Below, one piece after another: positions 33-23,721 of a stretch of 46,551 nucleotides of DNA. Both the position numbers and the translations under genes were made by a program. Below the pieces are notes generated by a model, which saw nothing but the letters and a program-made list of their open reading frames with translations, was not told the origin of the DNA and ran no database searches. How positions within the stretch are numbered: position 1 is the first letter of the stretch; every line of letters starts with the position of its first letter. The stretch covers positions 1 through 46,551 of the forward strand of contig JAFKKM010000047.1 in NCBI GenBank assembly GCA_017305555.1, given 5' to 3'. This DNA is from Hyphomicrobiales bacterium. Its GTDB lineage: Bacteria > Pseudomonadota > Alphaproteobacteria > Rhizobiales > Xanthobacteraceae.

Positions 33-356
33 GTGAAATCTCAGTTGAAGTATGGGGCGGGGGGGGACGGTAACCGATCGGACAAGCCCATGAACCAAGA
101 CGTCGTGAACCGAGTCGGGAACCTGCGATCCGCGCGGAGATGCGGGGCGCGGAATCGCGCCGGCCAACCCTGCCAGTGCCCAGCTGTGCGTGGCCGTATG
201 CGGTGTCGTCTCCATGGTGGGCTCAGTCCTGGAGCGCCGAAAGGTAAGGCTAACGGCAAATACACGGATGGATATTTCACCGCCGAGGCCGTCGCCGAGC
301 GTCGCTGGGCGAAGGCCCTGGTGGGCGACTTCGCGGAGATAAAGAAGGATGGCTGA
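33..356 (+). CDS. HGG-motif small accessory protein
   Basis: A short basic protein of about 107 residues with a cysteine-rich core (CGARN...PCQCPAV...RCRLHGG) followed by a Gly/Pro/Lys-rich stretch and an aromatic YFTAEA segment. The CxxR/HGG pattern is typical of small proteins found in islands and prophage-like regions of rhizobia. Their function is unknown, and the cysteines and histidine could bind a metal. The start at 33 is a GTG; an ATG at 90 (MNQDVV) is an equally good alternative and would remove an unconserved-looking leader. The frame stays open to base 1, so a start outside the window cannot be excluded. Its last codons overlap the next gene by 8 bases. Confidence is good that it is a gene, low for its start. 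Confidence 0.65.
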   Translation: MKSQLKYGAGGDGNRSDKPMNQDVVNRVGNLRSARRCGARNRAGQPCQCPAVRGRMRCRLHGGLSPGAPKGKANGKYTDGYFTAEAVAERRWAKALVGDFAEIKKDG

Positions 357-909
357 TCGCAAACTGCCAACGATAAGAGACCATAAGGATTCACCCGTGC
401 GGGTCCGTCTTCGTCGCATCAACGCCAATCTGGCAAAGCCCTATCCTCCTTCCGGTGATAGCGACCTATGGTGGTCTCGGCTTAAGACTGCGCTTGGTAC
501 GGCCTCTAGTGACTTCGTGAATGCAACTCTGCTTCAACTCCAGACCGCTGCGCGGCTGCCGAACGGAGGCATATCTGAAATCGCCGTCAACTCGGCGTTG
601 AGCATGATCGAATCGGCGAAACCCGAGGACGAGGTAGAGGCCGCCCTTATCATCCAGATGGCTTGCACTCACACCGCAGCGATGGCCGTACTCTCCCGGA
701 TCGGGGGTGCTCATGGCGGCGATCGCCATGTTGCAATGATGGCGGCGGCTGCGAACAAAATTCTCAGAGCGTTTGCCGTTCAGGTCGAGACATTACGCCG
801 GCTGCGCACAGGAAGCTCCCAATACATGCGGATCGAGCACGTCCATGTCGAATCTAATGCTCAAGCCGCTTTCGGTAATTTCCAGCAGTCAGGTAAGGAT
901 CCGACGTAG
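349..909 (+). CDS. Conserved protein of unknown function, coupled to the HGG gene
   Basis: 186 residues. The ATG lies inside the end of the HGG gene (8-base overlap) and is preceded by an AAGAAGG-type ribosome site, so the two are probably translated together. The middle is Ala-rich and predicted helical (residues about 50-150). The C-terminal part carries a distinctive RIEHVHV segment followed by a Gln/Asn/Ala stretch. No enzyme motif, signal peptide or membrane segment is visible. I recall similar proteins next to HGG proteins in alphaproteobacterial accessory regions but cannot name a family. The gene converges on drmB across about 100 bases. Confidence 0.7.
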   Translation: MADRKLPTIRDHKDSPVRVRLRRINANLAKPYPPSGDSDLWWSRLKTALGTASSDFVNATLLQLQTAARLPNGGISEIAVNSALSMIESAKPEDEVEAALIIQMACTHTAAMAVLSRIGGAHGGDRHVAMMAAAANKILRAFAVQVETLRRLRTGSSQYMRIEHVHVESNAQAAFGNFQQSGKDPT

Positions 910-934
910 TAGTGCAGACCTTTAGCCTTACTTT

Positions 935-949
935 GGCGCATTTTGCGCC
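935..949. terminator. Hairpin between convergent genes
   Basis: A perfect 6-base stem (GGCGCA / TGCGCC) with a TTT loop lies in the 102-base gap between the plus-strand accessory gene and the end of drmB. A T-rich stretch follows about 8 bases later on the plus strand. It is placed to stop transcription of the plus-strand pair, but it lacks an immediate T-run, so this is tentative. Confidence 0.4.
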
Positions 950-1011
950 GCGCATACTTTCTTTCTTATGCTAGGCGATGCTGGCCGAAGCAACCTTTGC
1001 CCATGGCCAGT

Positions 1012-2871
1012 CTAGCTTAGCAGTGGAGACCCATTGCCCAGAACCGTGCGGGTCAGAAGTCCGCGATCGAGCCGAGTGTTGCGCGCCTCGCATGAGGTCT
1101 CAGGGATTAGCAAGCACGCGTGGCAAGCTGCCCCTTGCAAAGGATATTCTTCACTTCCATCGCTGTGCTCCGCGCAAATGGGATCGTTGGAGCATAGCGC
1201 TAGGCGGTTGATTGCGCGGACAAGCAGTTCATTTATCCGTTCAGCCGTATTGCTCAGACCGCCAAGGGTGCCCTGCCCGCCAGCAGTTGTCGTATATATC
1301 AGGATTCCAAACCGGTCAGCTTGCGCGGGGCCACTGGAGTAAATCCGCTCTTTTAAGGACGAAAGCGGATAGCCACATTCCAGAGCGAGTTCGGCCATAA
1401 AGGCGTGCGACAGGGAGTGCAACGCCCAATAGGCGGTGCCGCGATGAGTAGGCTCACGATTGAAGCGCGCGGCGTCCCGGTTTTCTCGCTCCCGCAAGTC
1501 CCTCGCTTTGGCGACCGTCTGGTCAGCGTCGAGCCACGGCTTTATAAATTCTGGCGCTATGTGAAGGAAGATACCCTCGCCGAGTTGCTCGATCGCCGGC
1601 AGCCAATCGACATTGCGCGCGAGATCGGCGCCGCCAACCGCTAGCTGGATCTCGTCAAGCTCGCTCTCGGCGGGGGTCGGCGGCGGCTCCAGGCGGGTGA
1701 AGCCGTAGAGGCACGTCACCTCGCGTAGCCGGTGCACCCGCACCACGCCCTCTAGGAACTTGTCCCAAGGCGGCTGCAGCTTGAGCACCTCGCGCGGCAA
1801 CGTCTCACCGTAGAAAAACGATCCGGTGCCATCGCTGCCGATCACCGGCGCGCCAGTGGCCATCATGTCGAACTCGGCAATATGCGGATGCGCGCTCGGA
1901 TTGACTCCTGAGCCGTCGTCGCTGTCGAGCGCCTGCAAGATCTCTTCGCCGGAAAACTCCTTGAAGGCATCCTTCGTCCGCAAACCGGACTTTAGAAAGT
2001 CAACAAAACCCGGTAGCTGTCGAATGCTGTCGATGTCTGACCTGAACTCGGCGATCGTCTGCCGCAACTTGTCGTTCGACTTCGTTAGCGAAATGACCGT
2101 AACAGTTTGCGCGAAATAAGTATTGGTCGCCGAGCGCGGCAGAAGCCGCAGATCCTCGGCGCAAGTCTCGCCGGCGATGCGCCGCGGCGTCAGCCACGGG
2201 CTGTGACAATCACAGGTACCGAGGAATTTTGGCTTGTAGAGATCAGCCATACTGATCGAGGCGCCGCAGGTGCATTGCACCGAAATGTCCGAGGGATCAG
2301 AACTGACCCCTCGCTCGACCCAGTAGAGTGGCTTTCGGCAGGACTGTTCCCGGCCGCGATGGGTTAGATAGCGCCAAGAAATATCCTGCAGATGGCCTTT
2401 GGTGCAGGCGCCGACGAAGCGGATTGGGTTGACGCCAATCTTGCCGCCCGAGCCGGTGTAGGATAGCTTGCCACCGGCGGTGACGTTGAGCTCGGTAAAC
2501 TCAACCATGCGACGGCGCTTCTCATTGCCCGCCCCTGCCGGCGCCACCTCGGTCCCCTTGCCGGGTGCCTCGTTGATCAGGAACCACTCGGGAAACAGCC
2601 GCACACCGACGCCGGGCGCATTGATGTCGCGGCGTTCCTCGTCATACATCGGCGGAGAACGCAGGCCAGCAAATGTTGAGCTGAGCTTGTCACCGAGCTG
2701 CTGCTTGAGCAGTGCCACCAGCCTCTCTTCCTCGACCGGCTTCCAGCTCGAACCCTTGTAATCCCAGTCCTGCAGGCCAGCGACGACCACCGCATTGTCC
2801 GGCAGGTCCATCATGGCGCCCGGACCATAGGTCAGCAGCAATTGGCTGAAGTTCTGTGTGATGTCGGCCAT
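1012..2871 (-). CDS. drmB: DrmB, DUF1998-containing DISARM core protein
   Basis: 619 residues. The N-terminal start MADITQNFSQLL and the following GPGAMMDL segment are typical of DrmB. The middle holds several Cys/His clusters (CTKGH, CRKPLYW, CTCG, CDCHSPW), likely zinc sites. The C-terminal DUF1998 region has the ALHSLSHAF helix, the TTAGGQGTLGGL loop and a last Cys cluster (C..DPIC, GAACHACLL, SC). DrmB works with the helicase DrmA in DISARM, a multi-gene system acting on incoming phage DNA. It begins 10 bases after the drmA stop on the same strand, which supports co-transcription. It is the last gene of the operon: the drmC (phospholipase D-like) gene that usually follows is missing. Family assignment is confident; the molecular role of DUF1998 is not settled. 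Confidence 0.92.
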   Translation of the reverse strand: MADITQNFSQLLLTYGPGAMMDLPDNAVVVAGLQDWDYKGSSWKPVEEERLVALLKQQLGDKLSSTFAGLRSPPMYDEERRDINAPGVGVRLFPEWFLINEAPGKGTEVAPAGAGNEKRRRMVEFTELNVTAGGKLSYTGSGGKIGVNPIRFVGACTKGHLQDISWRYLTHRGREQSCRKPLYWVERGVSSDPSDISVQCTCGASISMADLYKPKFLGTCDCHSPWLTPRRIAGETCAEDLRLLPRSATNTYFAQTVTVISLTKSNDKLRQTIAEFRSDIDSIRQLPGFVDFLKSGLRTKDAFKEFSGEEILQALDSDDGSGVNPSAHPHIAEFDMMATGAPVIGSDGTGSFFYGETLPREVLKLQPPWDKFLEGVVRVHRLREVTCLYGFTRLEPPPTPAESELDEIQLAVGGADLARNVDWLPAIEQLGEGIFLHIAPEFIKPWLDADQTVAKARDLRERENRDAARFNREPTHRGTAYWALHSLSHAFMAELALECGYPLSSLKERIYSSGPAQADRFGILIYTTTAGGQGTLGGLSNTAERINELLVRAINRLALCSNDPICAEHSDGSEEYPLQGAACHACLLIPETSCEARNTRLDRGLLTRTVLGNGSPLLS

Positions 2872-2881
2872 CTGAAGTCCA

Positions 2882-5800
2882 CTATCCGAGAGGCGTACCG
2901 TTTGGTGCTCTGAGCTTCAGCAGCGAAACGGGCTCGGTGTCGCGCATCGAGCGGCCGGCGATGAACCACTCCCGCTCCTTGTCCATGTTGGGCTGCTGAT
3001 CAAATGGGTCTTGCAGCAACCGCCGCACCGGCTGCTGGCCGGCATAGGCGAACTCGTCGCCATTGCGAGTCTGCTTGTCGGCGATCCTGATCCAGGCCTG
3101 CTCCAACTCGTCGAGCCGAGCGAGGCAGCGCGCGATTGACGCACCGTCCTCCCCCGCCACCCGCATCTTGGTCTCGATCACATCGCGAACGCGCTGATAG
3201 GCGGTCGGCTCGTCCACTACCCTGCTGACCGAGGAATTTGGGGTCAGGCTCGGCGTAACATGGCGCTGCGCCGCCACGAGGGTCGCGGCCAGTGCCCGAT
3301 CTAGCGCGCGCGGCGCGAACGGCGTCACGCTTGTCGCCTCAACCGCGCGATAGAAGCTCTGGTGGAAGGCGCGGAACTGCTCGTAATGAGTGCGGTCACG
3401 CGGCTTGTGGATGTTGAGCAGCGTAACGACGAGGCCGGGCTTGTCGGCCTCGCGGCCAACGCGTGAGGTTGCCTGGATGTATTCCGCCGCCGTCTTGGGC
3501 TGGCCCTGCACCACCATCAGCCCCAGCCGGCCGATGTCAAGACCGACCGAGATCATGTTGGTTGCCATCGCGACGTCGACGGCGTTCTTGTCTGCGACCG
3601 CAAGCCCGAGCCGCTTACGCGCCTCTGAAACTTGATCGGTGGAATAACGAGAGGTCAGCTCTTGGATCTCGCGCAGCACCCGATCAGCGAATGGCTGGCC
3701 CGCAGGCTCGCGGCGGACGCGTAGCCGGCCGTAATTTGTCAGGTGCGCTCGGACCTCATCATCGACGATACGGCGGGCGCCGCCGAGTTCGCGCAGCGCG
3801 TTGAAATAGCACAAAGCAGTGAGATAGGGATCTGCTGGATCATCCTTGCCGCCGCTCGACAGTGCCTCTGCACCGGACAACAGCGTCTGCAGCGCGCGCA
3901 GGAAGACGAGTTTCGGGCCGCGGCCGGGCGAGGCGATACCGAGATAGAGTCTCGACGGCGTGGTGCGATCGACCTTCGCGAAAAAGGAATCGTCGCGGCC
4001 GACGCCCGGCGGCGGAAAGATCGCGGTGCGATCGCGGCCGAACAGGTTGCGGATCTGGGTCTCGGCGCGGCGCACAGTGGCGGTCGAGGCGACGATCTTC
4101 GGCCCGCGCCATTCTCCATTGATCTTGCGCGCGGCGAGCAGATCGAACGCGGTCTCATAGAGCCCGGCAACTGTACCGAGCGGCCCGGAAATGAGGTGCA
4201 GCTCATCCTGGATGATCAGGTCGATCGGCCGCAGCTCGGCCGGCAGCTTTGTGCCGCCGCGCACCGCCGCCCCGTAAAAACCGCTGGCATCGCTGCGGTC
4301 GACATGGCCGAAGAACGCACCGGCCCGCCCCTCCCATGGCACGTTGGCGAATTTGTCGACGGTCGCGATCATAAAGGCCGGTAGGCGGCGGTAGATCTCC
4401 TCGTCGACTACCACGATCGGCAGTCTGTCTTCGCTGGAGAAGGCGCAGTCGATCTCGTCGCAGCGCAAGTCGAGCCGCTGCGGGTTCGCCGCAGTCGGCT
4501 GCAGCGCGAATGCATTTTCCTTCAATTCAGTGCCGCACCATGGGCAGTTCTTCAGCGGCGCCGGCGCCGGACCTCTCCTGTTCCGGTACTGGCCGAGCCA
4601 ATAGACGGCAGTATTCTCCTTACGGTTCTGGGCGCTTCCGAGATTATTGGGGGTGGCGCCGCCGCCGACCCATAGGCCGATCTCGATCGGCCAGTCGCCG
4701 AGCCGCTTCCTCTCCTTGCGCTCCAGCTCCAGCGCACAGACGAGCCCCGCGGCGCGCTGTAACTGATCGAGCGTCAAGAGGCGCAGGGTGTAGCGCATCA
4801 CCACCGACAGCCCTGCCCCGGTCAGCCCCGGATTGCTGAGCCGGCGGCGCGCGATCGCCAGCGCCGCAAGGCCTAGATAAGCCTCGGTCTTGCCGCCGCC
4901 GGTCGGGAAGAACAGCAAATCGACGATCGGCCGATCCGCGTGAACGGGATCAACCAGACCGTCGAGGTTGAGCAGGATGAAGGCGAGTTGGAAAAGTCGC
5001 CATGTCGGCGCCCGCTGCTGCTCTGGCGGCTTGCCATTGTTGGCTGCGCCGCGCTGGCGGTTAGCGCGCTCCATCACCCGGTTCATGATGCCGAACGCCT
5101 CGCGGCTTAGCAGATCGGCCTTCAGCCGCGCTATCCCAGATTCGATGCGCCGACGCGCGGTCGCGATGTCCTCCAGACATTTCTCCGCGACCTCGCGGCG
5201 GCGCTTGCCCTCCAGACCAGCGACGAGCGCCAACTGCTCGCGCGCCCATGCCTCGTAGGCGACTGGAAGATCCGAGAGCGCCGCATCGAGCGTGCCGACA
5301 TCCTCCGCGGCCTTGGCCAGTGCCGCCATCGCGCGCTCGACGCCGGCAATGTCGATGTCAGCGCCGAGCTTCTCGACCTCCTGCATTGGCAACGGGTTGG
5401 TGAACACGGTCGTCACCCGTCGCTCGCCGTCCGGCGCAGCCCAATCGCCGGATGTGTTGTGGCCGACGGCGTAAGAACAGACATCCTGATAGTGCAGGTC
5501 GGCGAGCCGCTCGTCGAACTCATCGGACTCATAGGAGGCGCGGTCGTCGCGCCGCTCGAAGCCGCGAGCGAAATCGAGCTGCAGACGGGCTTGGAAGCAG
5601 AAAGCGACATCGCGAAAGCGGATGGTGTGCGGCCTCGCATTGACCAGGAACACCGAGACCGCCAACAGCTGCCGCTTGACGCCGTCGATACCCGCGGTGT
5701 CGATCGGTCGAGCCGAGACAACCAGTTCGAGCCCGCCGCCCACCGCCATCGGCGCCGCGCTGTTGGGAATGATGACGCGCTGAGGCTTGTCACCGAGCAA

Positions 5801-6415
5801 GATCGCGATCGGAAGGCTCTCCTCGCGCGGAATACGCCGCCAGTCCAGCGTGTCCCACTTCGGCGCTTTGGGCACCTCGCCGCGTTCCTCGGCCGCCGCG
5901 CGCGCCGTTTCTAGAAACACCGCGTCGTCGAGCCGAGGCTCGGTGACGTAGTCACCCCAACTCACACGCGCCTGCAACGCTTGCGCATCGCGCGGCAGCA
6001 GCACGGTGAGCCCGATCGACGACGGTTGGAACGAACGCGTCGGCGGAGATTCAGGCTGACCTTCATCGGGGGCCACGCCCTTGCTCTGCGTCACTTCCGA
6101 CAGGCTCTCGCTGCCGCGCTGCGTTTCGAGTAGGTCCTCGGCCGCCTGCTCCGCCGCGACCTCTGCGTTGCCTGCGCGCACCGTGCCGGCATCGCGCTTT
6201 GGCCCCAGAAAACCAGTGAGGTACCAGGTTGACGGCGCGACGCCGGCGATCACCTCGCGGGCAAGGTCGGGATCCAGGTCTGGGTGCGGGCCGACGAGAT
6301 CGCGTCGCAACAAGTCGACGAGGCGTTCGCGAACAGCGACGGGGGGCGTGGGCTTCGGGAGGGCAGCAAGCCTGTCGGTTGGCGCAGCAGTTGGCTGCGC
6401 AGGCGCCGTTGTCAT
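2882..6415 (-). CDS. drmA: DrmA, large SF2 helicase of DISARM
   Basis: 1177 residues, within the usual size for DrmA. Walker A is FFPTGGGKTEAY at about residue 503; the DEAH-box equivalent is QDELH at about 735; motif III is STAT; the C-terminal helicase lobe has GLDIG at about 957 and a QATSRVGR motif VI at about 987. A four-cysteine zinc knuckle (CPWC ... C ... C) lies between motifs I and II at about residues 620-660. In DISARM, DrmA and DrmB form the core that binds and processes foreign DNA. The ATG at 6415 is preceded by a strong GGGGGA ribosome site lying in an inverted repeat. It follows the glycosylase gene by 108 bases, a larger gap than elsewhere in the cluster. Very confident. Confidence 0.95.
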   Translation of the reverse strand: MTTAPAQPTAAPTDRLAALPKPTPPVAVRERLVDLLRRDLVGPHPDLDPDLAREVIAGVAPSTWYLTGFLGPKRDAGTVRAGNAEVAAEQAAEDLLETQRGSESLSEVTQSKGVAPDEGQPESPPTRSFQPSSIGLTVLLPRDAQALQARVSWGDYVTEPRLDDAVFLETARAAAEERGEVPKAPKWDTLDWRRIPREESLPIAILLGDKPQRVIIPNSAAPMAVGGGLELVVSARPIDTAGIDGVKRQLLAVSVFLVNARPHTIRFRDVAFCFQARLQLDFARGFERRDDRASYESDEFDERLADLHYQDVCSYAVGHNTSGDWAAPDGERRVTTVFTNPLPMQEVEKLGADIDIAGVERAMAALAKAAEDVGTLDAALSDLPVAYEAWAREQLALVAGLEGKRRREVAEKCLEDIATARRRIESGIARLKADLLSREAFGIMNRVMERANRQRGAANNGKPPEQQRAPTWRLFQLAFILLNLDGLVDPVHADRPIVDLLFFPTGGGKTEAYLGLAALAIARRRLSNPGLTGAGLSVVMRYTLRLLTLDQLQRAAGLVCALELERKERKRLGDWPIEIGLWVGGGATPNNLGSAQNRKENTAVYWLGQYRNRRGPAPAPLKNCPWCGTELKENAFALQPTAANPQRLDLRCDEIDCAFSSEDRLPIVVVDEEIYRRLPAFMIATVDKFANVPWEGRAGAFFGHVDRSDASGFYGAAVRGGTKLPAELRPIDLIIQDELHLISGPLGTVAGLYETAFDLLAARKINGEWRGPKIVASTATVRRAETQIRNLFGRDRTAIFPPPGVGRDDSFFAKVDRTTPSRLYLGIASPGRGPKLVFLRALQTLLSGAEALSSGGKDDPADPYLTALCYFNALRELGGARRIVDDEVRAHLTNYGRLRVRREPAGQPFADRVLREIQELTSRYSTDQVSEARKRLGLAVADKNAVDVAMATNMISVGLDIGRLGLMVVQGQPKTAAEYIQATSRVGREADKPGLVVTLLNIHKPRDRTHYEQFRAFHQSFYRAVEATSVTPFAPRALDRALAATLVAAQRHVTPSLTPNSSVSRVVDEPTAYQRVRDVIETKMRVAGEDGASIARCLARLDELEQAWIRIADKQTRNGDEFAYAGQQPVRRLLQDPFDQQPNMDKEREWFIAGRSMRDTEPVSLLKLRAPNGTPLG

Positions 6416-6444
6416 GATTCCCCCATGCGTCTTCCAAGGGAATC
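6416..6444 (-). promoter_or_regulatory. Inverted repeat over the drmA ribosome-binding site
   Basis: GATTCCC (in the message, upstream) and GGGAATC (downstream, directly against the drmA ATG) form a perfect 7-base inverted repeat with a 15-base spacer. The downstream arm contains the GGGGGA ribosome site. It could be a protein operator or an RNA hairpin that limits DrmA translation. The arms are seen directly; the function is inference. Confidence 0.4.
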
Positions 6445-6523
6445 AATACCACCTGCCTGACTGAAAGCAACCTTCGGTATACGGAAGCGCCATTCTTCAA
6501 TCGATATCGACGCATGCCCCGGG

Positions 6524-7243
6524 CTATGGTCGATCAGATTGGCCTCGGATCAGACCTCCGGACTCGCGCAGCAGACCTACAGCGTGCTCAAGGAGCCGCT
6601 GGCCTCGCGCCTGAAGGCGCTTATTCTTTTCCTCATTCAAGAAGCGGCTGCCTGGGGACGTGTGGGCCAAAAAGATGATGTAGCGATCGCCCCACTCCTC
6701 GACCGTCCCGACGACATCACCGAGAACGCGGATTGGGTAACCTCTGAGCCGATCGATCGCTTTGGCCGCCACCCCGCCCAAACACACGACGAGACGAGGG
6801 TCTACGATTTCAATCTGGTTTCTCAGGAAGCCTGAGCACATTTGAAGCATCTTGGGATCAGGCTGACGATCCTCCCAATGGCGGCCGTTTTGCTTGCGCC
6901 CAGGAAAACATTTCGCTGCCGAGGTCTGATAAACGACGCGGTCGAACTCGTCGAGGCGAACGCCGCATTCGGCGAACAAGCCTCGGATGCCGCTGCCGGC
7001 TGGGCCTTGAAAAGGAAGACCACTGTCGTACTCGGTCAGCCCTGGCGCCTGACCGATCAGCATGATCGATGCCGAAAACGGCGTCGACAGTATCGGGCGC
7101 GGGACGACGATCTCTGGCCGGCTCGGGGGATTAGCGGGATGTTCTGCCAGAATATTGGCACATCGCACGCAGCCACGGATTTCTGCGTCCAGGTGTTCGA
7201 GCTCTGTCGAAAATGATGGTTCGTCTCGCGGGTTTACTGTCAT
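6524..7243 (-). CDS. Uracil-DNA glycosylase superfamily protein (four-Cys, family-4-like) inside the DISARM operon
   Basis: 239 residues. Four cysteines sit as in iron-sulfur family 4-like enzymes: C25 and C28 (CVRC), C112 (AKCFPG) and C136 (MCSGFL), expected to hold a [4Fe-4S] cluster. The active-site segment is GQAPG (64-68) followed by GLPFQGPAG (75-83). The DNA-intercalation motif is HTSPGSRFLN (194-203), matching the COG1573 branch with HPS-SRWLN-type endings rather than classical family 4 (GEAPG, HP-A). These enzymes remove uracil or related damaged bases from DNA. The ATG overlaps the drmMI stop codon by 4 bases (ATGA), so translation is coupled to the methylase. A glycosylase is not part of the standard class 1 DISARM set. 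Enzyme family is confident; the substrate is unknown. Confidence 0.88.
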   Translation of the reverse strand: MTVNPRDEPSFSTELEHLDAEIRGCVRCANILAEHPANPPSRPEIVVPRPILSTPFSASIMLIGQAPGLTEYDSGLPFQGPAGSGIRGLFAECGVRLDEFDRVVYQTSAAKCFPGRKQNGRHWEDRQPDPKMLQMCSGFLRNQIEIVDPRLVVCLGGVAAKAIDRLRGYPIRVLGDVVGTVEEWGDRYIIFLAHTSPGSRFLNEEKNKRLQARGQRLLEHAVGLLRESGGLIRGQSDRP

Positions 7244-10200
7244 TCCAGATCGAGACTGTCCTGAGCATCATCGACTTCGCCGGCCGTCTTGCGGCTGACC
7301 TTCTCAGGCACCAGCCCCGCTGCGACTTCTTCGGCGTGACGCTCGGCGTTGAGGGCGAGCAGGCGCGCGAGAACGCGGTCGCGCTGCTCGGCCGGCCAGA
7401 AATAGCGGCCTTGATAGGTGTGGTCGTCCTCGGTCTCTTCGGTGAGGAAGACAGGGCGCAGTTCGTCGGCGAGATCATCCCAGCCATAGGCGCGCAGCAC
7501 GGCGCGGTCCATCTCGTCGTGTAGTTCGCGCAAACGTTGGATCGCGACGCCGGTTTGCTCCGGATCGTGGAAGCGATTGTAGGTCTTAGTCATACCTTCG
7601 TCGGCCGCAATCATCAGCGCGGCACGATGATCGTGATAGGTCTGGCCGACATCTTCGAGTTTCGCGTCGGATTCGTAGTCGGGCGGGAATGGGAAAGTTT
7701 CGAAGCAATCCGCAGGGCTATAAACAGGCGTCTCACCCTGACGAGATCCCCAATACAAAGCCCAAAGCATATGGACTCGGCTTTGCATAATCGAGAATGC
7801 AACAGGAATATTGTTAGCGACGACAACTATCAATTTCTGGCTATAGATATATTGCGCAGGGAGTAATGCAAAGCAGATATGTGCCGTGGTTTGTGAAATG
7901 GCGATGACAAAGTCCCGACCTTGGGCTGCCCTTCTCAGCGCCGGTGTATCTGTTCCATACTGCCACCAGAATTTCTTCCGACGCTCGGCGACACCATACC
8001 CGCCAAGTTTTTGTCGGTCACCGAAGACTCTTGAGCGCACGATATCCAGCAGGTCTGGCCACGCACCAGCCTCGGCCAAGGAGCGATTCTCAAAATTTAT
8101 CGCGTACCGCGAAAAAGCATGATTCGGGTGAGAAGTAATCTCATCTCCACCAATGTACGGTCGAATGATTTCCGCGTTACGTTTATTGATCGTGATGAGA
8201 TGGCGAGCTTGCTCAAGCGAACCAGCAAAACCTGCATCTGCTTCGTCAGAGAAGATGAATCCAAGCCCATATGTGTCGGCCCCGCGAAACGAGGCCGCTC
8301 CGCAATTTGTAAGTTGTTTGGGTGGAAACGCTTCAATTCCTGCCATCAACTTCGAATTGATATTACTGACCACCTTACCATCAATTAGACACCGCGCCGC
8401 GGGGGTTTTCTTAATTATGCAGATAGCAGACACCACTACGGACGCCGAGCCTGGCCAAGCAAAATTTCGCTTTGCGAAAAATATGTTAGCCCCGTGCGTG
8501 CAGAGGTAATGCAACCCTGCGATGCGAGTGTCGCCCTCAGCGACGGTCTTTGTTGCAACTAATCCAAAGGCTCCACTTAGTCGGAGCAGCATAAAGGCCC
8601 TTCGGAAGAAGTGAGCTATCAGATCGACAGCCTTTCCGCCGCTCTCGGCGTGAACGCTTCTCAGCCAATCTGGGTACGAATGGCCCAACGCCGCCCAAAT
8701 CTTTGCTCCTCCGAGAAACGGTGGGTTGCCGACAATTACATCGAAACCGGGATTGTCTCTCGCGAACACCTCCGGAAATTCGATTTGCCAGTGAAACGGC
8801 CGGTATCCCGCTGTCGCACGGAATGACGCGCCCTTGGCCTTGAGTTTCTCCCAATCCGGCGTCAGCCCACCAGCGATCAAGTTCTCGACTAACTGTCGTT
8901 CGGTCTCCCGCGCTTTCAACGTCTCGGCTGAAAAGAACGCCGCAATGACGGCGTCGCCGACAATGAGTGCCGGATCGCTCTCATCCTGCACACGCGTGTA
9001 ACGCGCCGCCTGCGCTTCAAGCCGCACGTCGTCGCTGGCATTGCGGATCGCTTCCCGCCCTTCGCGAGCGCGCTCGACCGCCTGTCGGATCGTCTCGCGA
9101 AACAGCGGCAGGCCCGGCTTGGATTGATCCCAATGGACTGCCTGGATCTGAGCTCGCGTCAATCCGACAAGGCTATCGCCAGCCTTGAGGGCGTGATCTA
9201 AGAACGTAAACTCGTGATCGCGAGCGAGCGTGGCGAGCCACAGCGACAACCGCGCGAGATCAACCGCCATCGGATTGCGGTCGACGCCGTACAAACATTT
9301 TTGCGCGACAAGCCGGCGCGCGTGCAGCGCTTCATCTTCGTCCGGCGGGATCTTCGGCTTCTCGGCGCCGTACATGTTCCAGGCCTGCTCCAGCCGCGCA
9401 CCGATCTGGCGGCAGGCTTCGACCAGGAAGGCGCCGGAGCCACAGGCAGGATCGAGCACCTTCAGCGACAGCACCGCCTCGGGCGAAGCCTTGTCGCCCA
9501 GACGCTGGAAGGCAGGCTCCAGCGCGTGACGTACGATCGGCTCGGTCAGCGAGCGCGGCGTGTAGTGCGAGCCGGATCGTCGGCGTTCCTCGGTCGGCTG
9601 CAGATAAGGCACGCCCGGACCGATCGGCGTCGCCTTGGGCGAGGCGCGCTCGTCGACCAGCGAGCCAAACGCCGCGATCAGCTCGGCGATCTCGCGCGCC
9701 TCCTTGACGCCCTTTGCCTGCTTGGCCGAGAGCTTAATGCCGCGCTCTTTCAGCCATTTCTGGCGCTCGCCCGGCTTCTGCGCGAAGAGCGTGTCCAGTC
9801 CAACGAAATTGGGGAGCTTCTTCTCATCGCGCAGCGCGATCATGCGCTCGGTGGCACGTGACGCGGTGAAGCCCATGACGGTTTCGTAGACCGAGCCGAT
9901 CGATTCGACGTCGAGCGAGCGATACGACAGGCGCTCGCGAATCTTCTCACCCGAGAGGCCCTTGCCGTCGATCGTCATCAGCCCGTGGAGAATGCGCAAA
10001 ATGGTGCCATCCGACACGGGCAGGATCTTACTGTCAGCGCGGGCGCTGCCATTCGCGCGCCCTTCCAGAAAGGCAAACAAGTCAGGATCGAACAGCTTGC
10101 CGCCGCGGCCGGTGACCCAGTCCGGGTGCCCGCCATGCACCAGCCGAAACACGGCCAAGAGCTGTCCCCAAGCGCCTCGCCGCTCATCCATCGTGTCGGG

Positions 10201-11208
10201 ATTAAGAGCCTCATCGACCAGCAGGCGCGCGTACAGCGTCTTGATCGAATAGCCGTTCTCCCACAGCTGCTTCAGATGCGGGTCGGACGACGACGGCAGC
10301 AGATCGCGATCCTCGGCATAGAGCAGGAACACGAGCCGCATCAGAACGGTAAGAAGCCCTTCATAGAGATGGTGCGGATCGCGCTCGGCGATCGCCTCGA
10401 TCTCCTGAGGCGCGGCGCGATGCAACCCGCGCAACAGCTCATACAGGGCGCCGAGCACCTGGCCGGACAGCTTTTCGGAGACGGCGTTCTGCGCTTCGCG
10501 CGAGGCCTCCAGCAGCTTCCGCAGCCGCGTCTCCGGCGCCCCGGTGAAGAACGCGTTGCGGCCTAGGCAGAGTTTGAGCCCGGCCAGCATTGGCCGGCCT
10601 TCCACCCGGCCAAGCGCCGCGAGCGGCCATGACAGCCAGCCCGCGGTTTCGCCGCGCGGCGCATAGACCAGCCGCAGCATGTTGCGAGCGATGAGAATGC
10701 CGACGCCGACATTGGTCTCGCGCAGCAGCCGCTCCATCCGCTGATGCGGTGTCGCCTCCCATTCGCCGGCGGCAAACTGGTTGCGACCATCGGCATCGAG
10801 ACCCGGATGCAGCATGACGAGCGCTTGCGCCGGCACGCCTTCGGGGGCTTCCCCGTTCCACAGCAGTGCAAGATCAGGCGCCAGCAAGGTCTCGTGTTCA
10901 GGGACCGTTACGGTCAGCGCTGGATCGACCGCCGGCCCGCCGGGACTGCCAGCCACCAGCTTCGACGGCCAGCCCAGTACCTGCTCGAAGAAAGCCCAAG
11001 CGTCCTGAAGCTCGAACAGGCGATCCTGATCGAGCGATGCGTCGGGATCGAGATGGAGCGCTGTCGCCGCAGCCTCGGTGTCGAGCGGGGTCTGGCGAAT
11101 GGGCGTGACGCCGGTCTCGCGAAGGACGTTGGCGCCGACGACCAAGCCTTCCGGCTGCAGATAGTTCAGCCACTCGGAGGTTTCGTCCTGTCGAGAATGA
11201 AAGGTCAT
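7240..11208 (-). CDS. drmMI: DrmMI, Eco57I-type adenine-specific DNA methyltransferase of class 1 DISARM
   Basis: 1322 residues from the ATG at 11208 (MTFHSRQDE), 8 bases after the drmD stop; a longer GTG start would run far into drmD and is unlikely. The long N-terminal region carries the FLLYAEDRDLL helix typical of large Eco57I-like methylases. S-adenosylmethionine motif I is DPACGSGAFLVE at about residue 589; catalytic motif IV is NPPF at about 828, pointing to N6-adenine methylation. The last third (about 900-1170) is the expected target-recognition part and has clearly lower G+C than the rest. DrmMI marks host DNA so that DISARM spares it. No nuclease motif is evident in the N-terminal part. 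Confident on family; the modified site is unknown. Confidence 0.92.
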   Translation of the reverse strand: MTFHSRQDETSEWLNYLQPEGLVVGANVLRETGVTPIRQTPLDTEAAATALHLDPDASLDQDRLFELQDAWAFFEQVLGWPSKLVAGSPGGPAVDPALTVTVPEHETLLAPDLALLWNGEAPEGVPAQALVMLHPGLDADGRNQFAAGEWEATPHQRMERLLRETNVGVGILIARNMLRLVYAPRGETAGWLSWPLAALGRVEGRPMLAGLKLCLGRNAFFTGAPETRLRKLLEASREAQNAVSEKLSGQVLGALYELLRGLHRAAPQEIEAIAERDPHHLYEGLLTVLMRLVFLLYAEDRDLLPSSSDPHLKQLWENGYSIKTLYARLLVDEALNPDTMDERRGAWGQLLAVFRLVHGGHPDWVTGRGGKLFDPDLFAFLEGRANGSARADSKILPVSDGTILRILHGLMTIDGKGLSGEKIRERLSYRSLDVESIGSVYETVMGFTASRATERMIALRDEKKLPNFVGLDTLFAQKPGERQKWLKERGIKLSAKQAKGVKEAREIAELIAAFGSLVDERASPKATPIGPGVPYLQPTEERRRSGSHYTPRSLTEPIVRHALEPAFQRLGDKASPEAVLSLKVLDPACGSGAFLVEACRQIGARLEQAWNMYGAEKPKIPPDEDEALHARRLVAQKCLYGVDRNPMAVDLARLSLWLATLARDHEFTFLDHALKAGDSLVGLTRAQIQAVHWDQSKPGLPLFRETIRQAVERAREGREAIRNASDDVRLEAQAARYTRVQDESDPALIVGDAVIAAFFSAETLKARETERQLVENLIAGGLTPDWEKLKAKGASFRATAGYRPFHWQIEFPEVFARDNPGFDVIVGNPPFLGGAKIWAALGHSYPDWLRSVHAESGGKAVDLIAHFFRRAFMLLRLSGAFGLVATKTVAEGDTRIAGLHYLCTHGANIFFAKRNFAWPGSASVVVSAICIIKKTPAARCLIDGKVVSNINSKLMAGIEAFPPKQLTNCGAASFRGADTYGLGFIFSDEADAGFAGSLEQARHLITINKRNAEIIRPYIGGDEITSHPNHAFSRYAINFENRSLAEAGAWPDLLDIVRSRVFGDRQKLGGYGVAERRKKFWWQYGTDTPALRRAAQGRDFVIAISQTTAHICFALLPAQYIYSQKLIVVVANNIPVAFSIMQSRVHMLWALYWGSRQGETPVYSPADCFETFPFPPDYESDAKLEDVGQTYHDHRAALMIAADEGMTKTYNRFHDPEQTGVAIQRLRELHDEMDRAVLRAYGWDDLADELRPVFLTEETEDDHTYQGRYFWPAEQRDRVLARLLALNAERHAEEVAAGLVPEKVSRKTAGEVDDAQDSLDLE

Positions 11209-11216
11209 GATCGCGC

Positions 11217-14200
11217 TCAGTTCGTCGCCGGCCAGAGATAGATCAGCCCGATCGGCTCCAGCCGCCGCGCCTGGACCTCGTAGCCCTGGCGGACCTTTTC
11301 GGGCTCGCTGTCCAACTCCTGCTGCAGACGCAGCAGCTTGCCGTCCCACGAGCGGCGGTCGGCCTCGAACTGGCGGAGTTCACGTTCGTGCTGCTTGCGG
11401 ATGTCGTCCTCGCTAGGGCCGAACAATTCGAATTGCTCCGGTGCTGCCGGAGGCTGCTTGGTGCGCATCGCGTCGCGAACCTTGTCGATTTGGCGTTGAA
11501 GCAGCGCGGCCAGAGCCTCCGCCTCGCGTCGGCCGTTTTCGGCAAGCTCGGTCACGGCCTCCTGCTCGGAGAGTTTCGCACGGGTTTCGATATGAGGGCG
11601 CAGCTCGGCGATGTCGCGCTCGACTGTCTGGGCTAGACGCTCAAGAATACCACTTCCGGGCGATACGCCGATGCGCAAAGCGTCATCCAGCTGCTGGATC
11701 GTGGTGGCTTCACCGGCCTCTGCGAAGGGGGCAAGCGGGCTCTCATCCCGCCGCATGTCACGCCATGCCGCCGTCACCGGAATGATCTCCTCGTGCAGAC
11801 GTCGCGCCCCTGGTCCGAACAGGCAGAGTCGCCCGAGCAGCACGACGCGCGGCTGCGCGCCGGAGCTGACAATGGCCGTAACCCGTCCGACGTTGGTCCG
11901 AAAACCCTGGCTGACGAACCGCGACAGCAAGCGCTTGACGAGACGGTGCTCAAGATGCAGCTGAACGACGTCTTGTGGCTCCGGATCGCCTTGGCGGACC
12001 ATCGGTGGCTCGAAGACGAGACCGCGTACCGGCGTCTTGCGCCGCCATTGCGCGCGCTCCTTCACGTTGGCCGGACGCCCAGGGCGCAGCTCGTCGAACA
12101 GCGACGCCCAGGTCGGATCTTTCGCAAAACTCGGGGTTTCAGGATCGAGCAGGACAGCATCGGGGACACTGAAGTGTCCAGGCTGAAGCGCAGCCGCATC
12201 GTCCTGCAATGCGATCTCCACCACGTTGCGGATGTCCTCGCCCTTCACGCCGACGCGTTTCTTAGCCGTGTCGAGCGCCCGCTGCAGGCGCTGCTGCTCT
12301 TCCTTCAACCGAGCGACCCGCTTGTCGGCCTCATCCCCCAATTCGCGTTCAGCAATGCTGACGCGCCCTGATTTCGCGTTGGTGATGGTCTCGGCCATCC
12401 GCTCCGCCTCACCGCGGCGAATACCCTCGCGCGCGAGCGTGGTTTCGATGGTCTGACGCAGTACCTCCCCGGAGGCGCCGAGCTGCTTTCGGATAACCTC
12501 CGTCTTGCGCACCAGAGCGTCCAGAACCCGATCCTCTTCCCTCTGCTCGTAAACGAAATAGCGGCAGGTGACGGTCTTCGACGGCTGCAGCTTACGATCG
12601 ATCCGGCCATTGCGCTGTTCGAGGCGCGACGGATTCCAAGGCAGGTCGACGTGGATGAGATCGTGGCATCTTGCTTGGAGATTGAGGCCTTCGCGGGCGG
12701 CGTCGGTGCAGACGAGGATACGAACCGGCTCTTGTTCAAACGGCGCGTTGAAGGCGATCTTGATACGATCGCGTTCGATGAGACTGGTTTGGCCGGTGAA
12801 ATTGAGGATGCGTCCCTCAAGATCGATGCGGCCGAGGCTGCGCTGAAGCAAGCCTTCCTTCAGTCGTTCGACCAACCAGCGGCGCGTGTCTTCCCACTCC
12901 GTGAACAGGATCAATCGGCGATCGCGCCAGGCGTGGCCGTCGTCGAGCATCTCATCTTCGATCCAGTCCAGGATTGCCTCGACTCGAGCATCGGCCAGAT
13001 CGCGCGCGCCGCCGCTGATCGCAAGCATGCGATCGACATGCGCGATCGCCGCCTTCAAGTCGCCGAGCTCGCCCTTGGCGTGATGGGTGGCGACCTCGAT
13101 GGAGTCGTTGTCTTCGATCAGATCAGGCGTCGTCTCGCCAACGTCCGGACCGATCTCTTCGCTCTTTCTGGCGAGGCTTCGTCGGTGCGTCGTGAGTGTC
13201 CGATGGAAAGCTGCAATCGATGAGAACAGGCGCTGCTGCAGATTTGCGAACAGGAAGCGCGCCCGCGAGCCGCCCGCCACCGACTGGCTGTACTCGTCGA
13301 GCATGATGGCAAGTCGCAGTTCCGGCGCGTCAGGTGGCAAGCCGGAGATGGAGATCGGATCGACGATGCGCTCGGGGAACGCATGGCCAAGCCGACGCAG
13401 GTCCTCCTTGAGCCGGCGCACCATCACGGGCTCTAGGTCTTTGGCCTCGACGTCGATGCCCCGGGTGAACCGCTGCGGATCGAGTATCTCCAGCAGCGTC
13501 GCAAACGAATTCGAATGGCCATTATGCGGCGTGGCCGAGAGGAAAAGACGATGTTCAAACAATCCCGCGATCTCGCGGACCGCTTTCGTCATCTGACTCT
13601 CGATGGCCCAGGTCGCCCCCGACGATGGCGCCGCGTGATGAGCCTCATCCAAAATGAACATCGAGCCTGGCCGGAAAGGTGCCAGGATGTCGCGCAGACC
13701 TCCCGTATAGGTTTCGTCGGAGAGGACGCTGTGAGAGACGATGAAGCGAGAACCGACGCTCCACGGGTTGGCCGAGAACCCGCGGGTACGCCGCGTCTCC
13801 AGCAGATGCTCGCGATCAACGATCGTGAAATCGAGGCCGAACTTCTGCGCCAGCTCGTCCTGCCATTGCAGCAGCATCGATGCGGGGGCTGCGACCACGA
13901 TGGTGTCGACTCGGCGCCGCAACAGCAGCTCGCGCACGATCAACCCAGCCTCGACAGTCTTGCCGAGCCCGACGTCGTCGCCGATCAGGAGATTGACGCG
14001 GGGCAGCTCCAGCGCCTTTTTGAGCGGCAGTAGCTGATAGGACTCGAGCCGGATCCCGGCGCGGAACGGTGCCTGGAAAAGCTTGCGGTCGGCCGCTGTA
14101 GCGGTGCGCCATTCCGTCGAGCGCAAATAAGCACCCAGGCGTTGCGGCTCCTCAAAGGTCTGGGAAAGTAGTGACGACCAGTCGCTTGGATCCAAAACTA

Positions 14201-14369
14201 CTGGCTCCAGCTCGACGGCGTAAACCAGGTCGACGGCTTCGCCCTGGGAATCGTCTTCGCAGGACATCAGAGTGAAAGCTTGAACGGTTCCCTTCTGTTC
14301 GCTGCTTTCGACGATCCAGGTCTTCCCTCTGACCTTAACGAAAGCTCCCACTTGCGGGATGTGAGGCAT
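11217..14369 (-). CDS. drmD: DrmD, SNF2/RapA-like helicase of class 1 DISARM
   Basis: 1050 residues. Walker A is GDDVGLGKT at 130-138, DEAH at 241-244, motif III SATPHNGH at 278-285; the C-terminal lobe has CTDAAREGLNLQ (motif V) and LEQRNGRIDR (motif VI), then a long charged coiled-coil-like region rich in Glu/Arg. DrmD is the signature helicase of class 1 DISARM and lies upstream of drmMI as expected. The start ATG has no strong ribosome site; an AAGGA lies about 18 bases upstream. It opens the DISARM part of the island, 216 bases after the RecD-like gene. Very similar in type to the helicase at 18328-21051, so the island has two RapA-like motors. Confidence 0.92.
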   Translation of the reverse strand: MPHIPQVGAFVKVRGKTWIVESSEQKGTVQAFTLMSCEDDSQGEAVDLVYAVELEPVVLDPSDWSSLLSQTFEEPQRLGAYLRSTEWRTATAADRKLFQAPFRAGIRLESYQLLPLKKALELPRVNLLIGDDVGLGKTVEAGLIVRELLLRRRVDTIVVAAPASMLLQWQDELAQKFGLDFTIVDREHLLETRRTRGFSANPWSVGSRFIVSHSVLSDETYTGGLRDILAPFRPGSMFILDEAHHAAPSSGATWAIESQMTKAVREIAGLFEHRLFLSATPHNGHSNSFATLLEILDPQRFTRGIDVEAKDLEPVMVRRLKEDLRRLGHAFPERIVDPISISGLPPDAPELRLAIMLDEYSQSVAGGSRARFLFANLQQRLFSSIAAFHRTLTTHRRSLARKSEEIGPDVGETTPDLIEDNDSIEVATHHAKGELGDLKAAIAHVDRMLAISGGARDLADARVEAILDWIEDEMLDDGHAWRDRRLILFTEWEDTRRWLVERLKEGLLQRSLGRIDLEGRILNFTGQTSLIERDRIKIAFNAPFEQEPVRILVCTDAAREGLNLQARCHDLIHVDLPWNPSRLEQRNGRIDRKLQPSKTVTCRYFVYEQREEDRVLDALVRKTEVIRKQLGASGEVLRQTIETTLAREGIRRGEAERMAETITNAKSGRVSIAERELGDEADKRVARLKEEQQRLQRALDTAKKRVGVKGEDIRNVVEIALQDDAAALQPGHFSVPDAVLLDPETPSFAKDPTWASLFDELRPGRPANVKERAQWRRKTPVRGLVFEPPMVRQGDPEPQDVVQLHLEHRLVKRLLSRFVSQGFRTNVGRVTAIVSSGAQPRVVLLGRLCLFGPGARRLHEEIIPVTAAWRDMRRDESPLAPFAEAGEATTIQQLDDALRIGVSPGSGILERLAQTVERDIAELRPHIETRAKLSEQEAVTELAENGRREAEALAALLQRQIDKVRDAMRTKQPPAAPEQFELFGPSEDDIRKQHERELRQFEADRRSWDGKLLRLQQELDSEPEKVRQGYEVQARRLEPIGLIYLWPATN

Positions 14370-14585
14370 TGACGTCCGGATGGCTATTATCCTTCATTAT
14401 TGGCTTTTCGTGTGCCACTGGATCGAGAGGGATCGAGAACATCGGGGTGTCCCCGCTCGAAGGCGGATATAAACTTCATGGTCCCGTAACGCTTTTTGGA
14501 GGTGACGCTCATCATAGACAAAATGCTCCAACAGTCTCCTCATCCGAACGTCAACTCAAGCGCTTAGCTTCCGGGAAGCGCCCTT
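14370..14585. promoter_or_regulatory. Intergenic region upstream of drmD
   Basis: The longest gap inside the island, so the most likely place for a separate DISARM promoter. It holds a 10-base near-tandem repeat (GATCGAGA twice, 14421-14438) and a short hairpin CGGGG-TGT-CCCCG (14443-14455), which could be operator elements. A small palindrome GCTTCC/GGAAGC lies just after the RecD-like gene stop. I see no convincing -35/-10 pair and no convincing gene in it. Confidence 0.35.
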
Positions 14586-17500
14586 TTAGAGCCGAGCACG
14601 TATAGCTTGCGCCGTCTTCTCGACGAAAGCGACATCACGTATCTCCTGCTCGGTACTTGTGAAAAGATTCTTTCCCTCCGTGAAACCGTTCTGGGCATAC
14701 CACCGCTGCTTCCATTCCCACCCCTCACGATATTTTGTCTGATCCAACATGCCGAGATGCTCCCAAATGAAGACTTCACCAGCATCGTCAATGAATGAAA
14801 AGTCCGGCCGCACGCGTCCTGACCTAATCGTTCCATCCAGGGGACGTTCATATTGATAGTTCATATCGAGCGAATTCAACTTTTCCGCAATTAGAAGTTC
14901 GGATTTGCTGCGGACTAGCTCGCCGCGACTCGTCCGATAGATGAGATGAGCCGCATAGCGGTCCTTCGAAGGCTTGCCGCTCCTTCGCTCGCGTAGGTCC
15001 TCCGAACGGATGCCAACCGCAAACAGATTTGTGCTTCGCCGCGCGGTTTCGGATGTTCGGATCAATTCATTGAGAAAGCTTGGGTTATCGCCCTCCATCA
15101 GCAACACTAAACGATCTTTCGAACGAGTGAGGGCGGTGTAGATCAGCTCGCGCGTCAATAGACGCGACCGCTGTGGAAGGACGACGAATACCTTCCGGAA
15201 ATCGCTGCCCTGCGCCTTGTGCACCGTCAAGGCATAAGCAAGCTCAAGCGGCGCGCCCTCGGGGCCGAAACTCTCTGGACCAAACCCAAACTCAATGTCC
15301 GGCCGTCCGACGAAAGCGACATTCAGCAGCTTGTTCTTGGCAATCCCTCGTCCAATCCCAGCAACGCCGATCTCACCGTTCGCGAGATATTCCTTGACCC
15401 TCTTCTTGTCCTTGCCATTCCAGCCGCCTCGACTACCATTGCGGGCAAGAATGACTTTGTCTCCCCAAACGATTTCCTCATCTCCAAGACTTAGCCCCCA
15501 TGGCTGCCGGGATCCTTTCAACTGCGATGCACGAAACCTACGCTGGATCCAACGATTGAGTTCATACACACCATGGATACTCTTTCGCACAGGACAGAGT
15601 ATTTGAAAATTCTCCGCACCATCGTGGTCCCCATAAGGGACCCAGCCTTCCTCTGTGAGACCGAGCGCGAGGTTGAAGGCCTTGACGTCGTCTCGGCCAT
15701 CGAGCCCCAAATGCCTTTGGAACAGATCGGAAAACTGCTCATGCAAATCTTTCGGCGTTTTCCAATAGTGAACCTCAAGGTCATTGAACGTCTCTCCCGC
15801 CTCAAGGTCGTTAAGGACTCTATCGGCATCGACCGGCTGAGGCTCCCGAGTGAACCAAGAAGCGAGGCGAAGGCTGTCTGAGGGGGCACCGGCACTGGTT
15901 CTCACTTCGACTGATAGCTTGGCAAGCGCGGCGCCGACTTCTTGCTGTTTATCGCCTGCATCGTCAAGATGTGCCACCAAGTCCGCGAATGGCCGGCCCA
16001 TTCCGATGGGCGGAAGCTGGTTCGGATCGCCCACGAGTATAATGCGTTGAACGTGCGCGAGATCGAGGCCGAGCAGGACGGCAAGTAAATCATCCATCGT
16101 GAGCATCGAGCATTCGTCGATGACAACGGTCTTTTCCTTCGCGTAGGGCTGATCGCCTTCGAACAATGGCCGCTGCCTCAAGGCATCGTACCTATCGCGC
16201 TGATACAGAAACTGGGCGACCGTCATTGAAGACTCGCCCGTTTTTTGCCCTAGACGCACGCGAGCTTTGCCAGTCGGCGCCAAAAAGAGAATGCCTTGCC
16301 TCGAAAGAACCTTGGACTTCTTTAGAGCTCCCAAAACGGTCGTTTTGCCTGTACCGGCACCGCCCACCAGCACGCTGAGTTTTCGGGTCGTAATCTTTTC
16401 AAGGATACTGCTCTGCTCGGAGAGCGCGTCGGCGTAGCGCTTTTCTGAGAAGTCAACCTTTACGCCCTGTTCACCGATGCTCTCCCGGAGAAGATTTCCC
16501 CAATTCTCGCGTAGGTTTTCCAATCTCGATTCGGCGCGCTTGACCAAAAGTTTGGATAAGCGTTGCTCCCGCTTCATAACATCGACAAGTTGCACACACC
16601 TGACAGGCCCGGAGCTCTTGTCCCGCACAAGATCAAAGTGAGCTACCTCACCTTCTATTTGCTTGAGATTTCCGTTGATCCAGTCCGAAGTGACATTGCA
16701 CGGCTGGCTCAAATCTAAGGTAGAAAAAGCTTCCAGCGCTTCATCTTCGGCCAAGAGCGAATCACCCTGCTGCCCCGCATTCCGAAGAACAGAGACAAGT
16801 GCTGCACGCACCCGCCTCCAGTCCAATGGAGACTCGATTATCGAAGGGGCAGGCATAGGATGCGCACCCGCGACTGTTGCATCAGGAAGCATTCCGCGAT
16901 CGACCATACCAAGTGCTACCGGGCGTTCGTCCGCGTCCCCTAGGTCCGCCTCCACGATGCGATAGGGATTAGCGATAATTGCGGCGTCGTCGACCTGACC
17001 TCGCGTCGCCGTGTTTCGTTCGCTCGGAATAAACCAGCGGCGCGCCTGAGCTGGACTAAGTTCAAACCTTGACAACAGCTTGAGTAGCGCCCGCCGCTGT
17101 TCTGTCAGTCCGTTCCATGTAGCCGCGACTGCTTCGACGTCGCCTTTGTAGGCTTTCTGCGGTGGCGGACGCTTGCCTCGGAAAATCGCGTCGAGAACCG
17201 GCCATGGGTCATCGCTTGGCTTGACGTCTCCCCGACCACTCAATTCAAGAACCATACTTGTACCAAGGCGCATTCCGAGCGCCTCAAGCGCAGCTCCAGC
17301 TCCTGGGAAAGCCCCACGGTCCTGCCATACACAGTGGATTTGCTCGTTGAGCCATTCCTCCCGCTGCTCCCATGGCCCAGCGACTACACCATGCGTCCGG
17401 ATCTTGCGAACCGCCTCCAAGCCCCGAACCAAAGAGGAGAGTGCCACATCGTTCGCCGCAAGCTCCCCGACATGCGTGAAAGACCTCAGTTGACTGCGCT

Positions 17501-18299: not shown

Positions 18300-18327
18300 T
18301 TCGTCCCCGACAACCTTATTGTTTCTT

Positions 18328-23646: not shown

Positions 23647-23721
23647 TGGCGCTCCCTAGGGGAATCGAACCCCTGTTTCAGCCTTGAGAGGGCCGCGTCC
23701 TAACCGCTAGACGAAGGGAGC
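23647..23721 (-). tRNA. tRNA-Glu (anticodon CUC)
   Basis: On the minus strand a full cloverleaf can be drawn: acceptor GCTCCCT / AGGGAGC, anticodon stem CGGCC / GGCTG with loop CTCTCAA (anticodon CTC), T-arm around CAGGGG-TTCGATT-CCCCTA, discriminator G and an encoded CCA at 23649-23647. The CTC anticodon reads GAG (Glu), and TCGTCTAG in the D region is typical of tRNA-Glu. Its 3' end points into the defence island, the usual geometry for an integration site. Confidence 0.95.

Follow-up and report, generated by a model that had tools for sequence, protein, structure and literature searches.

An optional uracil-DNA-glycosylase-superfamily gene between drmMI and drmA of a class 1 DISARM operon that lacks drmC

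Class 1 DISARM, as described, comprises drmD, drmMI, drmA, drmB and drmC. The last of these, according to the part of the relevant study available (Bravo et al., PMC9142583), is dispensable and often missing, and the means by which DISARM without it stops or destroys phage DNA are there called a mystery. Among alphaproteobacterial plasmids there are loci of just this kind, in Paracoccus marcusii (pMARC5, L093), Sulfitobacter (L126) and Sphingomonas (L096), with drmD-drmMI-drmA-drmB, no drmC, and a drmMI-drmA gap of 36–135 nt that is empty of genes. From a different quarter, members of the uracil-DNA glycosylase (UDG) superfamily are shown anti-phage proteins: Brig1 (PMC11078745) and Brig3 (PMC13160076) are found among defence genes and, in the portions of the two texts at hand, have as their substrates the hydroxymethylcytosine forms found in T-even phages, with the word DISARM absent from those portions. 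One review (PMC10273834) covers both DISARM and uracil-DNA glycosylase, though apart in the sections available, and the available text of a preprint on YprA helicases (PMC12458937) has neither the word uracil nor the word glycosylase. A literature search pairing DISARM with uracil-DNA glycosylase or UDG, which reached part of the literature, found no link between the two in one system. The likeness of the present enzyme to Brig1 and Brig3 is one of description only. Class 1 DISARM and drmC-less loci are already known, and the extra glycosylase considered here is best read as an optional addition to a known system.

The window, by which is meant the whole 46,551-nucleotide stretch analysed (contig JAFKKM010000047.1 of a Hyphomicrobiales bacterium, assembly GCA_017305555.1), carries on its minus strand, from 14369 to 1012, a class 1 DISARM operon that profile searches resolve as drmD-drmMI-UDG-drmA-drmB. 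It shares with the described system the four signature genes and their class 1 order; it differs from it in having no drmC and in the UDG-superfamily gene added between drmMI and drmA, the place which in the plasmid loci just mentioned is empty. A preliminary description made from the sequence had recognised the four genes in this order, and PADLOC and NCBIfam confirm it, with DrmA, DrmB and DrmD above cut-offs and DrmMI being the best PADLOC match. drmD (11217..14369) encodes a SNF2-like helicase of 1050 aa (PADLOC PDLC02621, 928 bits; NCBIfam NF038317, 964 bits, cut-off 610), and drmMI (7240..11208) an MmeI-like adenine methyltransferase (PADLOC PDLC02643, 1172 bits; Pfam MmeI_Mtase, Eco57I and MmeI_TRD). 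Downstream of these two, drmA (2882..6415), for a helicase of 1177 aa (NCBIfam NF038325, 1089 bits, cut-off 950; PADLOC DrmA, 837 bits), adjoins drmB (1012..2871), for a DUF1998/MZB protein of 619 aa (NCBIfam NF038324, 484 bits, cut-off 240; PADLOC DrmB, 257 bits). The longest open reading frame of drmMI begins at 11349 and its PADLOC match starts at residue 51; the gene more probably starts at the ATG of residue 48, position 11208, just past the drmD stop. The UDG-superfamily gene (6524..7243, minus strand, 239 aa), which the preliminary description had also placed between drmMI and drmA, matches Pfam PF03167 (80.6 bits, cut-off 24.3; E 1.5e-22). With drmMI, on the same strand, it shares an ATGA junction in which its start codon overlaps the stop of drmMI, and 108 nt (6416..6523) separate it from drmA. 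A consensus scan of 500–14800 gave no promoter-like sites, and terminator-like sites at chance number, a result neutral for the operon reading.

The usual PLD-like member, drmC, is absent after drmB, as had been claimed: the 1011 bases past drmB hold instead a convergent gene pair on the plus strand (33–356 and 349–909, together 33..909), homologues of which, 57% and 77% identical, flank the same DISARM operon in Afipia (L072). The preliminary description had allowed that a drmC might lie just outside the window in the same operon. None was seen as far as the contig reaches, its base 1 being where the window starts; a coupled drmC, if present, would have had its start right at the stop of drmB. 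A search with drmC at an E limit of 0.01, which recovered the gene in all three genomes used as positive controls, found no match in the window's own genome, in the Afipia genome (G248) or in G211, and a single marginal one (E 0.009) in G140. At drmC's place elsewhere, directly at the drmB stop, G211 has the start of a T5orf172 (GIY-YIG-like)/PDC-S57 gene (L073, 14381–15172).

What kind of enzyme is the inserted product? A structure predicted from a 30-row alignment (29 relatives) has a mean pLDDT of 91, that of the single-sequence fold being 42, and its best PDB match is the Thermus thermophilus UDG 1ui1 (E 5.4e-14), with 4zbx and 6ail also within the first five. UDG fold and PF03167 match together place the protein in the UDG superfamily. 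With family 4 UDG (UDGa) and UdgX it shares the fold represented by these three structures, the motif 2 His, the pocket Glu and Phe, and four Cys (25, 28, 112 and 136), which we take to match the usual iron-sulphur positions. It differs from them in falling below the cut-offs of the NCBIfam family models (NF040953, 66.2 bits against 250; TIGR00758, 63.7 against 125.3; TIGR03914, 64.6 against 189.95), in having motif A as GQAPG where family 4 has GEAPG, and in having Ser for the pocket Asn and Asp for a second Asn. In the alignment with relatives, Thermus UDGa E41, G42, E47, F54, N80, N89 and H155 correspond to Q65, A66, E71, F78, S108, D125 and H194, the N80 and N89 assignments being our own mapping onto the family 4 pattern with the Thermus sequence itself outside the alignment. 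Of the six Thermus UDGa residues compared (E41, E47, F54, N80, N89 and H155), three are thus kept. Nor is motif A that of UdgX, GEQPG (PMC10359453, from the part available).

In Thermus UDGa, as far as the available part of PMC5387724 (the source of the residue roles) goes, E41 and N80 line the uracil pocket, E41Q alone costs 888-fold in efficiency and changes of N80 cost more than 40-fold. With Gln and Ser in these places, the present enzyme cannot be assumed to excise uracil. At the position proposed to be that of the pocket Asn, Brig1 has a Glu that matters for defence (PMC11078745, portion available). The pocket changes may mean that a base other than uracil is removed. Among 57 aligned rows (the window counted twice) Q is present in 55, S or A in 55 and D in 43, with the caveat that IMLIGQAP was one of the search patterns, so that the constancy of IMLIGQAPG, and of Q65 and A66 with it, is partly built in. 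Being common to most relatives, the changed pocket residues give no sign of a DISARM-made specificity.

An intact glycosylase gene, its product 70% identical to the window's, occupies the same drmMI-drmA slot in G140, where 32 nt separate it from drmMI in place of the ATGA overlap seen in the window. Between window and G140 the dN/dS ratio is 0.17 for the glycosylase, 0.16 for drmMI and 0.07–0.08 for drmA, drmB and drmD, values that are rough at a dS above 1. On these ratios, the overlapping start and the shared slot, the glycosylase is judged a real, kept gene under purifying selection. In Afipia G248 (L008 and L072 being the same 806,544-base contig) the same block is present, with the PDC-S68 helicase gene, DISARM and the flanking pair. 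Its S68 gene is 87–89% and its DrmA 96% identical to the window's, and of the glycosylase there is only a 3′ remnant, about codons 157–239, with an internal stop. G211, whose DrmA is 88% identical to the window's, has a 129-nt drmMI-drmA gap and no glycosylase. Intact in the window and G140, decayed in Afipia and absent in G211, the gene has therefore been kept in some lineages and is dispensable in others. Uniqueness to the window's genome, the outcome that the preliminary description had set against its own reading, is ruled out by the intact copy in the same place in G140 and the Afipia remnant. The two intact copies known here are both from one bacterial family.

Close relatives of the gene are scarce. 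At E 1e-25 the eight genomes of the window's genus gave a glycosylase match in the window's own genome only, and at E 1e-30 the 18 of G140's genus gave one in G140 only. There was no match at E 1e-25 in 265 genomes of G211's genus, a search with at most ten candidates scored per genome and no positive control within the genus. Of 29 genomes in Afipia's genus, 26 have a match at 1e-10, the G248 remnant at 2.6e-34 and all others no better than 4e-13, with 30–43% identity, which is what other UDG genes would be expected to give. A scan of 84,980 species genomes with six short peptide patterns (which may leave out the window's own or near genomes) yielded 58 relatives' loci, with drm genes in the fetched flank of the Afipia one (L008) only, so that a glycosylase family made for DISARM is unsupported. 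Of seven of these loci, inspected by eye without annotation, most have neighbours that look like housekeeping genes; in Botryobacter (L007) type I RM-like genes lie, again by eye, some 6 kb from the glycosylase relative. Spread by viruses was considered and rejected, the scan of viral contigs giving no relative and phage records giving 15 weak matches. Plasmid records gave 240 matches, every one below 60% identity. The host genome itself has two further UDG genes elsewhere, one (L002) with family 4 motifs and the other (L003) UdgX-like, and ordinary uracil repair should therefore not need the glycosylase in the DISARM slot.

Is the lack of drmC tied to the glycosylase? The comparison drew DrmA neighbourhoods from 27 of 391 family genomes, 15 of 397 order genomes, 8 of 385 class genomes and 3 of 398 phylum genomes (E limits of 1e-50, 1e-100, 1e-100 and 1e-180, respectively), all listed matches being fetched, along with 16 of 53 matching plasmid records; the window's own genome sits in each of the four genome samples and some genomes recur. 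The 63 loci came down to 43 of class 1 on dropping 20 with no drmMI match of 200 bits in the stretch. Two of the 43 lie at contig ends, L077 downstream of drmB and L079 inside drmMI, and a drmC running off the end of L077 would escape. drmC is present in 12 of the fetched loci and missing from 31, and within the latter an intact glycosylase gene was found in L074 (G140) and a remnant in L072 (G248). Such a count of DrmA neighbourhoods had been proposed in the preliminary description, and with the window included it gives 44 loci, 32 of them drmC-less; in these 32 the glycosylase is intact twice, a broken remnant once and wholly absent 29 times. The glycosylase figures refer to a family 4-like profile and open reading frames of at least 80 aa; more distant glycosylases would escape. 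In a DrmA tree of 43 rows (the window, 41 class 1 loci and L135) a single clade with support 99 takes in 28 of the 30 drmC-less rows, L109 and L125 being unplaced, and the rows with drmC split into a remote group of seven and a group of six from cyanobacteria (support 89). The absence of drmC follows the DrmA tree. Since most relatives examined lack the nuclease gene as well, the extra glycosylase has probably been added to the operon without standing in for drmC.

The glycosylase sits in a variable slot that holds different genes in relatives. Over the 43 fetched loci the drmMI-drmA gap, taken between BLAST match ends, runs from 36 to 5586 nt, and it is longer than 500 nt in 22 of the 31 that lack drmC. 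An XRE-M78 regulator is present in 18 of those 31 stretches (L075, L077–L079, L081, L082, L084–L086, L092, L094, L095, L097–L101 and L140), 17 times placed inside the gap, L140 being the remaining one; the L081 example matches PADLOC's RmrA model and, more weakly, those for CapP and CapH. Eight loci carry, by eye, a small PIN-looking gene as well (that of L081 without a Pfam match). Other gap genes are a PLD-annotated protein in L094 (no Pfam match), DuOB in L079, DUF488 in L086 and a weak GIY-YIG match in L099. Two genes of L076, both on the minus strand, one in the slot (9983–10861) and one after drmB (3866–4597), have by eye a distant UDG-superfamily look; they were left out of the counts and gave no match in Pfam, NCBIfam, PADLOC or PDB sequences. 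In L101 (9923–16011, G751) the drmA match spans about 6.1 kb as against 3.5 kb, and the gene may be interrupted. Just before the slot, the drmMI stretch that includes the target-recognition domain (7600..8900, minus strand; Pfam MmeI_TRD at residues 1046–1222 of the longest open reading frame) has been exchanged between otherwise close relatives. In 250-nt blocks from 8850 to 7601 it is 44–57% identical to Afipia G248 and 47–62% to G140, as against 87–93% to G248 before 9100.

The reading we prefer, to which a probability of about one half may be given, is that a class 1 DISARM lineage normally without drmC gained an optional glycosylase in the variable drmMI-drmA slot, its base excision being an add-on that widens the defence. 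It starts from the gene order and gene identities, the overlapping start, conservation under purifying selection in a second genome, decay in a third, and the lineage-wide lack of drmC. The genes from drmD to drmB, glycosylase included, would be expressed as one transcript. DrmMI would mark host DNA, while DrmD and DrmAB, as described for DISARM, would load onto unmarked invading DNA and block or unwind it. The glycosylase would remove a uracil-like or altered base from the phage DNA, probably most in single-stranded intermediates, and the resulting abasic sites would block replication and be cut by host AP endonucleases. The glycosylase may in this manner supplement DISARM, and would widen the defence while remaining dispensable to it. 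Its likeliest role, making abasic sites in invading DNA, would be a matter apart from the lack of drmC. The weakest link is the substrate, given the Gln and Ser at the E41 and N80 positions. DISARM persists in Afipia and G211 without the gene, whose benefit may therefore be small.

That the glycosylase is an independent anti-phage cargo gene of the Brig kind, merely sitting in the DISARM slot and working without DISARM, is a tentative alternative with some appeal, as the slot carries many unrelated genes in relatives, the glycosylase has been lost in Afipia while DISARM stays, and UDG-superfamily proteins are reported, in the parts of the two sources available, to defend alone or with one partner (PMC11078745; PMC13160076). 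Against it stand the same-strand overlap of its start with the stop of drmMI (though in G140 the two are 32 nt apart) and the neighbours at most of the seven relatives' loci, which look, by eye, like housekeeping and not defence genes. Such neighbours, to the same eye, would fit a repair enzyme equally well. With the family 4-like fold and the kept His194, Glu71 and Phe78, they lend something to the idea of host-side repair or maintenance, in which the enzyme would remove deaminated bases where the DISARM helicases leave host DNA single-stranded, or around methylation, and lower the cost of DISARM. That idea is nevertheless unlikely, the host already having two other UDG-superfamily genes and 29 of the 32 drmC-less DISARM loci managing without a glycosylase. 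A bolder view, doubtful enough to be called speculation, has the drmC-less lineage using the drmMI-drmA space as a place where accessory genes can be plugged in and exchanged (the glycosylase, the PLD-annotated and PIN-looking genes, the RmrA/CapP-like XRE-M78 regulator), the plug-in here being a base-excision effector of changed specificity that would make abasic sites out of altered phage bases for DISARM to act on. The suggestion of the preliminary description that base excision takes over the step of the DrmC nuclease draws on both intact copies lying in drmC-less loci and is rejected as very improbable on the locus counts and the DrmA tree, since those 29 loci, G211 among them, have no such gene, 28 drmC-less rows of the 43 cluster together with support, and DrmC is reported to be dispensable and in many cases lacking (PMC9142583, part available).

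In preference to these, an add-on glycosylase in a drmC-less DISARM is the reading carried forward. The window operon with its intact glycosylase and the nearly identical Afipia operon with a broken one are a natural pair that makes the question of drmC-less DISARM testable, and from the varied drmMI-drmA slot comes a shortlist of genes that may be DISARM add-ons.

Upstream, on the same strand as DISARM, there is a second defence-like cluster (14586–23494, minus strand). It has a dynamin-like GTPase gene (21044–23494), a SNF2 helicase in two open reading frames split by an in-frame stop (19480–21051 and 18328–19425), and the PDC-S68 helicase gene (14586–18338; PADLOC, 1373 bits), which precedes DISARM in Afipia too. 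A tRNA-Glu (ctc) gene at 23647–23721 stands at the edge of this defence region of lower G+C and is a possible insertion site.
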